Of a DNA stretch of 64,000 bases, positions 44,601-47,600 are shown in pieces (position 1 is the stretch's first letter; each line of letters opens with the position of its first letter). The DNA lies in the NCBI GenBank assembly GCA_037176885.1, contig JAWWNJ010000115.1, positions 682,001 through 746,000 on the forward strand, in the 5' to 3' direction. The notes beneath the pieces are model-generated. The model searched no databases. It was not told the DNA's origin and saw only the letters and a list, made by a program, of their open reading frames with translations. The position numbers and the translations under genes were made by a program. The stretch is from Favolaschia claudopus. Lineage: Eukaryota; Basidiomycota; Agaricomycetes; Agaricales; Mycenaceae.

Positions 44601-47600
44601 CGACGAGGATAACAGTCCTGCCTTTGACTAAATCTCCGGTGAAACATTTTTCGACGATCCACTTCGAAGTATGGACGCTAATTGTATGAGAATGCCCGTC
44701 AGCGTAAAACAAATGACCTGAACAATTAAACTCACTCCAAAGCGGCGAGCACATCATCGAGGAGCAAGATCTCGGCTTTGGAATAAATGGCCCGCGCCAA
44801 TGTACAACGCGCTTTCTGACCGCCACTCAAAGTAAGACCTGGATGAAGGACGTTAGCGGATCATCCAGGTGACATTCTAGGAATAGCGACGCGCCTTTTT
44901 CTCCGACCTCGCTTTGATCCCCAGCCTCGAATAACTCCAAATCGCGCTCCAACGCACATTGGTACAATACCTTTTTGTAGCGCTCTTCATCGAATTCGGA
45001 GCCGAAGAGAATATTGTCACGAATCGTTTCGTTCAACACCCAAGATTCCTGAGCGGCATATGCCACTCCGCCTTCGCGCGGAAGGTTGTACCAGGAGCCG
45101 GGCGTCGCCGGGATAAAGTGCATTTCACCTGAATCGATGTCAGTACCGGAATATGCCGAATATGCATGAACGAGCGCCTACCGAGAAGGGCCATAAGCAA
45201 GCTAAATCGACCAAGTCAGAAATTATTCTAACTAAAGAGTTGCCACATACGATGTTTTGCCGGCGCCAGTGGGACCAAGCTGATAGCGCAATTCACATCA
45301 ATATCAACAGGAACGCAACAGGCCAAAACATACGACAAGATTGAACCGCCCACGCTTGAAGAGGAGCTCGTCGTCAATGCGCAGTGTGAACCGATGCCTT
45401 GACGGCGTGGCAGATCCATCATTCTCATTCGACCAGGTGAACATCGCGTCGCGGAACCCAATCTCTTGAGACCGTGTGGTATGATCGGCGGCCAATACCT
45501 CAGCGGATGTCTCCTTATCTTCGACGAACTGATCGAGTAACTCCGTCTAGAAAATATCAGCAAGGCTTGCCACTATATAAAGCTTTCCTGCGTACGTTGT
45601 GCAAGAAGTCGTTGATACGGTCCAGCTTGAGGATGTTGAGCGTGGTCAAAGGCAACGGATGAAGGCGACTTACAGAGACTTTAGAGTCAATGAACTGAAT
45701 CACACGGTAGTTGGCCATGTGCAGTTGGTTGCGGAGCATATCAAACACAGGCATTGTGCTGAAAACGATCGACGGTCGCAACTCTTGTTTCATGATCACC
45801 GTCTGAGGAGGAACAGTGAACTTGGAAGTTCGTTTGCGTCAGGAAGGAGCAAACTCACGCTGTGATGAAGTTAAAAAAATGTGCGTATGGATGATAGAAA
45901 AAAAAGGAAACTCACAAAGTAACATAGGTAACCAGCATAGTAATGATTGGGATGACGTTGCTAGCGTGAATGGTCGGACTTTCTGTGCCAGAGGAAAATT
46001 GATTTGCTCACTTGACCGTATTCGCAACCCACTCAAAGATCTCTCGCCTCCAAATCCAAAGCAGCTCCTCTTCCCGCTTATTGTTCACGCGCTCGAGCAT
46101 CCTGTCTTCCCACCCGAAGAGCTTGATCATTCGCAGGACGTTCATCGCTGAGGAACAAACGTCAACGACAAACGAAAATTGAGATCGAGAACCAAGTCAC
46201 ATACTCTCGCTGATCGTCCCGATACGCGCATCCGCCGCCTTGATGCGCCCGATCTGAATGCCCTGCAGAATTCGAGCGGCGATGCCGGATACAGGGAAGA
46301 GCATGAGCATGGTGAACATCCCAACGAACGAGCTGAAAATCCAGATGAGGCGGGCGTCTCTCTGGATACGACGAAGGAACACGCACCTCCATCCCAAAAC
46401 GATATACAAAAACACCACGCAAAACACAATCGTTATCGGCATGTAGAAGAGGAGGAGCAGGAAGTCCGCCATGTTCGTGACGTTGCGCAAATCCGTCGTA
46501 ACGAGATTAGATATCTTGCCGACGTCGACGCTGCCCTGCTTCGTAGAGTTCGAGGATGATTTGGGGTCTTTCGAGATGGTGCTCGCAGTACCCTGCACGG
46601 TTTCGCTGCTGGCGTCTGACTCGGATGGGTCATTCGTGGAGCTCGCGTCGTCCTTGGGAGACGGCGGAGTGGGAGCGTCGGGATTGTCGTTATGCGCCTT
46701 GACCCGCACGCGTAAAGCGTGCTCGAAGATGAGTTCAGTGAGGAGACCTTCGACTTGGACGAGAATGCGCATCTGCGGAGGGAGATAGTGGGTGAGGGCA
46801 AGAACGGGGAATATGTACACTGCAACGCACCGAAAGGCGGAAATATGCTTGGAGTGCGGTCGTTCCAATCAATGGGCCGAATGCGAGCCAGATGATCCAC
46901 ACGATAGGACGTATTGGAGAATCTTCAGGGCCATTTTCGAGGTATCTTGAGGGATGTTAGATTAGACCATGAAAGCCAACGAGGGAGTAACGGACGCAAG
47001 GACCCGATTGATGCCAATCGGAGAGGCGAACATACACAAGGAATACAAGATGAGCAGAAAGATGATGGTTGAGTATTCGTTGCTGCGACCGATTCAGTAC
47101 AGTTTCAATGCCAAGGAATAAATGTCGTACCTGAAGGTCTTGATGATACCGAAGAAGATGTGGTGACCGCTCGCTCCAGAGAAGATGTCGATGTTCTGGA
47201 CAATAAAAATCACCATCGACGAGTTTGAATCGAAAAGGGGATGGTCAAACCGGGAAGCTGCGTTTCTTCAAGTTTTCCGACATGTCAGAGTCTGCGAGCG
47301 GCGGGAGCATGTCGAAAGGAAGATGCGGGAGTTTGTACGCCTGGATGATAACGGGGTCGAGGAAGCTGAATAGGATGAGGGAAAGCGGGGACGCTGTCTG
47401 CTCCGGACTTGGAACTGGCATCGGGTTCTACGACTCATTGAGCACTTTTCGAGGATAATGAGATGGGAAAGACAGACGTTCGGGTCGACGGGGACATAAG
47501 CCCGCGGTGTGACGAGTGGGATAATCACCGCCGCCAGCGTGAGGGTGACGAGCTTTCCTGTGAGAATGGGACCCTCGAAGGTGTCCTGTATCGGCCACGT

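Follow-up and report, generated by a model that had tools for sequence, protein, structure and literature searches.

A predicted one-nucleotide exon in ABCC-type transporter genes of Favolaschia claudopus

The window analysed here is a stretch of 64,000 nucleotides on contig C115 of the 264.6-Mb assembly of Favolaschia claudopus, a wood-rotting mushroom of the Agaricales. Its minus strand contains a predicted transporter gene (Table 1), the product of which is 1393 to 1570 amino acids long, depending on the intron penalty used in the exon parser described below; its minor introns are uncertain. Pfam identified two ABC_membrane and two ABC_tran stretches in this product, the best NCBIfam match was TIGR00957 (MRP), under the cut-off of that family, and homologues in the PDB were ABCC2, MRP1 and YCF1. 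The product thus has the two membrane and two ATP-binding domains of an ABC transporter of the MRP-like ABCC type. Two more copies of the gene are present on contigs C2 (93%) and C61 (91%). Elsewhere in the window, a reading frame at 50939-51577 (minus strand) carries, C-terminally, a fungal cellulose-binding domain (CBM_1), and its remainder resembles a GH7 cellobiohydrolase in its motifs. The stretch at 20777-22234 (plus strand) contains a phosphopantetheine attachment site (PP-binding) and perhaps belongs to a larger biosynthetic enzyme, and that at 13646-14428 (minus strand) is transposase-like, with weak DDE_3 and helix-turn-helix matches under the cut-offs.

The initial annotation had proposed that a lone C in this gene is an exon of its own, flanked by two 56-nt GT-AG introns, and this arrangement was indeed found on the minus strand, where the order is ...GTTACTTT/GTGAGT...CATCACAG/C/GTGAGT...CTCCTCAG/ACGGTGATC.... 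Splicing that includes the single base would give the peptide MLVTYVTFTVIMKQEL, with the predicted junction TTT-C-ACG. The site corresponds to residue 580 and so falls within the first of the two membrane domains, for which Pfam gave an ABC_membrane stretch of 431-597. The extent of the downstream exon varied with the parser setting: the two lowest penalties (2 and 4) placed the start of an intron at 45673, and penalties 6-10 extended the exon to 45596. The lengths of both flanking introns vary among the three alleles of the gene (Table 1), which argues against the presence of coding sequence there.

Table 1. Features of the predicted transporter gene in the window and contigs carrying the six paralog groups
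Feature	Position	Strand	Remarks
Predicted ABCC transporter gene, whole	41679..48203	-	parser: ATG at 48203, stop at 41681-41679
Upstream exon, 45 nt, encoding ...NVIPIITMLVTYVT followed by TT, ending in phase 2	45916..45960	-	common to the C2 and C61 alleles
Intron 1, 56 nt, GTGAGT...TCACAG	45860..45915	-	52 nt in C2, 55 nt in C61
Predicted one-nucleotide exon C, completing the Phe codon TT-C as its third base	45859..45859	-	
Intron 2, 56 nt, GTGAGT...CCTCAG	45803..45858	-	56 nt in C2, 55 nt in C61
Downstream exon, starting ACG GTG ATC ATG (TVIMKQELRPSIVF...)	45674..45802	-	129 nt if the next intron begins at 45673
Group A			contigs C115, C2, C61
Group B			contigs C1, C290, C15
Group C			contigs C9, C39, C62
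Group D			contigs C77, C94, C87
Group E			contigs C43, C44, C17
Group F			contigs C35, C19

The gene was parsed with a small purpose-written exon parser that uses codons from confident exons of the window gene and a generic splice-site table set by ourselves. Unaided, the parser chose the one-nucleotide exon at all five intron penalties tried (2, 4, 6, 8 and 10). With exons shorter than 3 nt disallowed, the two lowest penalties (2 and 4) led to an exon of 5 nt whose donor is weak; at 6, 8 and 10 the parser chose a 121-nt intron with donor GTTACT at 45923, which deletes V-T-F. Another tiny exon, of 2 nt at 43363-43362, was called at penalties 2 and 4 and was absent at 6 and above; we consider it an artefact of the parser. 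As a spurious exon of this kind can arise elsewhere in the gene, a tiny exon called by the parser is no proof by itself, and we regard the parser evidence as supportive only.

A search of the F. claudopus genome revealed 17 copies of the site, belonging to six divergent paralog groups (A to F; Table 1), of which the window gene and its two further copies form group A. The peptides of groups B-E are 47-60% identical to that of the window gene. Each group is represented on three contigs, except group F, which is on two. According to its published description, the genome comprises 265 Mbp, was assembled from PacBio reads with Falcon, and has 86.8% of its BUSCO genes duplicated (PMC10905254). The distribution of the groups over about three contigs each suggests that the assembly holds about three haplotypes or homoeologous copies.

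For each copy we enumerated parses that keep the frame, allowing GT or GC as donor, AG as acceptor and intron lengths of 38-260 nt; three-intron parses were admitted only if their splice scores were positive and their introns at most 130 nt long. The final ranking used mean instead of summed splice scores, with 2-nt exons included, as summed splice scores favour more introns. All top-scoring peptides used a one-nucleotide exon, in the same codon in 17 of 17 copies, and so did the best parse on peptide plus mean splice score in every copy. Mean splice score alone selected it in 16 of the 17 copies, the exception being C77 of group D; since the peptide reference was composed by ourselves and is of the expected length, this count, based on splice scores only, is less circular. 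Competition was tightest in the group E copy C44, for which a parse without the one-nucleotide exon reached a peptide score of 61 versus 63, with poor splice sites. Canonical GT-AG introns of 46-69 nt flank the base on both sides in all 17 copies. The base is C in groups A (3/3), B (3/3) and D (2/3) and T in groups C (3/3), D (1/3), E (3/3) and F (2/2). It is thus always a pyrimidine (8 C and 9 T), and the codon is either Phe (TTC) or Tyr (TAC or TAT); within group D the difference between C87 and the other two copies (C94 and C77) is a synonymous TAT/TAC change. The proposal that the base is needed both for the reading frame and for the conserved helix of an ABCC protein is therefore supported well beyond the window: the comparison with related ABCC genes that had been suggested, carried out here inside the genome, showed that the one-nucleotide exon is required at the same position in all 17 copies of the six groups.

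Intron turnover is evident near the site. In groups C and D an extra intron creates a 7-nt exon (CAACATA or CCACGTA) directly before the one-nucleotide exon (L052-L054 and L049-L051), which would place three introns within nine coding bases and spread the TYATYT stretch over four exons. Judged by eye, the intron at KVS/LDR is present in groups A, B and C, absent in D and F, and was not seen for E. The six groups share descent and hence are not independent draws. Groups A to F are probably monophyletic, and the one-nucleotide exon would predate the paralogs; in other species its conservation is indicated indirectly, by broken protein models (see below).

The length expected at the site is given by relatives in which the codon is uninterrupted. 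We looked at six further ABCC stretches out of 33 places found in the genome, so other ABCC genes may have been missed; in those examined the codon is continuous, for example TGT TAC ACT CTC ATC (L068) and ACC TAC GCC (L079). Five PDB alignments of 26 matches were likewise gap-free at the site, both for MRP1 chains (TFAVYVTI; Tyr568 of 8vt4_A) and for chains of ABC transporter C family member 2 (SFGVFTLL). The ABCC2 alignments have a one-residue gap three residues downstream of the site and the MRP1 alignments an insertion about seven residues downstream of it. The genomic paralogs examined, MRP1 and ABCC2 thus agree in the length that inclusion of the single base would give. Together, these results make it very likely, at a probability that we put at about 0.95, that the MRP/ABCC-type gene of F. 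claudopus has a constitutive one-nucleotide exon between two short GT-AG introns, as judged from the genomic sequence.

The initial annotation had named a single larger intron as the finding that would speak against such an exon. In the window gene this would be the 121-nt intron TAT/GTTACT...CTCAG/ACG, resulting in MLVTY-TVIMK with VTF missing. This intron keeps the frame in each of the three group A alleles (117-121 nt), has an intron score of 7.2, and is what the parser preferred at the three higher penalties once exons below 3 nt were forbidden. However, its donor GTTACT scores only 0.6 versus 5.5 for GTGAGT, and it would shorten by three residues a stretch that is gap-free at the site in MRP1 and ABCC2. 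Moreover, the alternative is workable in group A only. The best single introns in groups B, E and F have GC or GTCTAG donors and splice scores of -3.1 to 1.2, and the peptide scores of those in groups C and D do not exceed 47 (versus 74) and 58 (versus 80), respectively, so that well-scoring equivalents are lacking in groups B-F. We therefore consider a single larger intron very unlikely.

Even less probable is the junction of the deposited model for the C2 allele (P0001), which combines the donor GTTACT with a CAAG acceptor and replaces VTF by the hexapeptide FILSPQ (TAT-TTCACTGTTCCTCCTCAG-ACG or allelic forms). By eye, this junction is in frame in all three alleles. Nevertheless, it uses the weak donor, parses of its type were never best in groups B-F, and the added stretch differs by allele (FTVPPQ, FILSPQ and FIAPPQ) while the flanking exons are, by eye, nearly identical, which indicates that this stretch drifts like an intron.

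Two adjoining short introns also resemble a nested (twin) intron arrangement. In a stwintron both introns are removed without an exonic base remaining. Excision of the whole as a stwintron or as a single 113-nt intron, with loss of the base, would join TT or TA to AC and lead to a stop within three codons in all 17 copies: an immediate TAA at the junction in the 14 copies of groups B-F and TTA CGG TGA in the three copies of group A. Omission of the base thus breaks the frame in every copy, as expected for a true single-nucleotide exon, and we assign a negligible probability to excision of the whole. An error in the assembly, or splicing that slips by one base through a non-canonical junction and retains one G, is just as hard to credit: a PacBio/Falcon assembly such as that described in PMC10905254 can contain single-base indels, the slip would be in frame as TTG (Leu) in the three group A copies, and two public Mycena models have Leu at the site (P0011 and P0021), but the structure is identical in 17 copies on 17 contigs and retention of one G yields a TAG stop in all 14 copies of groups B-F.

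How often the splice-site arrangement around the single base arises by chance was estimated with dinucleotide shuffles. The strict pattern, YAG-Y-GTNNG[CT] flanked on both sides by 42 nt or more, was picked after the data had been seen; all 17 introns have it, as opposed to 0 to 0.8% of 2000 shuffles per intron. The loose pattern AG-Y-GT occurs in 1.7 to 9.2% of shuffles. Intron identity between the groups is near random (0.58 versus 0.54 for shuffled sequences), which indicates that the arrangement of acceptor, single base and donor has persisted while most of the intron sequence changed. Several introns of the copies have weak branch-point patterns or none; simple patterns were lacking in intron 2 of all three group D and two of the three group E copies, and in intron 1 of C35.

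Public protein models were compared with our own gene model, a model being regarded as broken if it had a gap no more than about four residues away from the site. The search gave 1732 matches, of which 120 were listed and all 120 were examined. At least 45 of these listed models are broken at the site. This is a low count, as models carrying a wrong stretch of equal length pass as clean (P0022, P0036 and P0037, and perhaps P0083 and P0085). Among the listed matches, gaps per residue reached 39 of 120 at the site, versus 0 to 8 at the other eight introns of our model in the region searched. Gaps are also frequent at residues 640-681, in the linker, where a single residue has up to 38 of 120; we attribute these to ordinary linker divergence. 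With presumed order labels, the broken models among the listed matches are 45 of 72 from Agaricales and none of 43 from other Agaricomycetes orders, all 43 of which match our model without a gap at the site. None of the five proteins labelled 'lgn' (contigs of 5-14 kb) is broken; these may be transcript-derived and were not counted as proof. Broken models among the listed matches come from Mycena, Lyophyllum, Termitomyces, Pleurotus and Cyathus, and intact ones from Polyporales, Russulales and Boletales. The concentration of the failure in Agaricales suggests that the structure arose within or before this order.

The best 40 matches all come from Mycena, Roridomyces or Favolaschia, and 28 of them are broken. 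In several of the faulty models Y or F precedes VS, VG, VN or VR, the residues that translation of the intron 2 donor would give. Seven of the best 40 carry Tyr or Phe at the site and are of the expected length (P0003-P0007, P0013 and P0014), and the two with Leu mentioned above also have the expected length. Neither of the two F. claudopus models in this set of 120 contains the one-nucleotide exon: P0001 (C2) reads TYFILSPQTVIM and P0062 (C1) reads TYATYPYSSRLLSTVIM. RNA-seq was included in that annotation (PMC10905254), and the junctions of P0001 and P0062 therefore count against the one-nucleotide exon.

If the base is included as proposed, the spliceosome itself would make the product, constitutively and by sequential removal of the introns. 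The ordinary lengths of the two introns and their complete GT and AG ends make intron definition with sequential removal the simplest account: each intron would probably be recognised through its own donor and acceptor, and the two would probably be excised one after the other. As the AG of the intron 1 acceptor occupies positions -3 and -2 of the second donor, the two ends are probably not occupied at once; both this bar to simultaneous occupancy and the order of removal are deduced from the arrangement of the sites. The single base would be the third of a codon (TTC, TAC or TAT) that mostly specifies an aromatic residue of the first membrane domain. Retention of intron 1 would give TAG at the junction in the 14 copies of groups B-F and TGA one codon later in the three copies of group A. 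A wider proposal, which we consider unlikely, is that the exon is ancient in an ABCC clade of Agaricales, is present in very many genes throughout the order and has corrupted their public models. It would have been kept, although loss of either intron would be harmless, because its inclusion serves as a checkpoint, with skipping, a one-base slip or intron 1 retention leading to an immediate stop wherever the upstream exon ends in TA.

The 17 copies, in six diverged groups of one culturable fungus, would constitute natural replicates for the study of splicing at an acceptor and a donor one base apart, and would also allow one to ask which flanking intron leaves first. In addition, a one-nucleotide exon would explain why faulty public models of these transporters cluster in Agaricales.

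Our literature searches, covering titles, the starts of abstracts and few subscription papers, found no one-nucleotide exon in a basidiomycete and none in an ABC transporter. Being mitochondrial, the placozoan cox1 gene is presumably not processed by a spliceosome. It likewise has an exon of one base (PMC5436844). Nuclear one-nucleotide exons have been described in plant APC11 (PMC4674806), plant VPS55 (PMC8831610) and Fusarium CYP621A (PMC12940212). Hence, of the earlier statement that such exons are very rare with one case in Arabidopsis, the Arabidopsis example holds and the number is outdated; the CYP621A paper presents its own case as the second of its kind and the first from a fungus (PMC12940212).

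Arabidopsis APC11 resembles the predicted ABCC case in having a constitutive one-nucleotide nuclear exon between two spliceosomal introns, and its authors also argued for sequential splicing by intron definition (PMC4674806). APC11 is, however, a plant ubiquitin-ligase subunit (PMC4674806) and the ABCC protein a fungal membrane transporter; unlike APC11, the ABCC exon is found in six paralog groups of one genome and supplies a third-codon-position base that is C or T only. The VPS55 exon is likewise long conserved and missing from annotations, with paralogs that have it and paralogs that lack it (PMC8831610). It belongs to another gene and another kingdom, and was proven by RNA-seq and RT-PCR (PMC8831610), whereas the ABCC exon is a prediction from the genomic sequence. 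The closest parallel in setting is CYP621A, also fungal, with short introns, a one-nucleotide exon in a conserved motif and wrong public models, for which an intronless relative was also used as a length marker (PMC12940212). That case concerns an ascomycete P450 in which the base is a G in the middle of its codon; the exon occurs in orthologs within a single subfamily and is supported by SRA reads (PMC12940212). The ABCC exon is, in contrast, deduced from the sequence of a basidiomycete gene with C or T at the third position and several paralog groups; the tandem 7-nt and 1-nt exons of ABCC groups C and D differ from CYP621A as well. The ABCC exon thus joins the kind represented by APC11, VPS55 and CYP621A, and what is unusual about it is its spread over paralogs and, in two of the groups, the 7-nt exon ahead of it.
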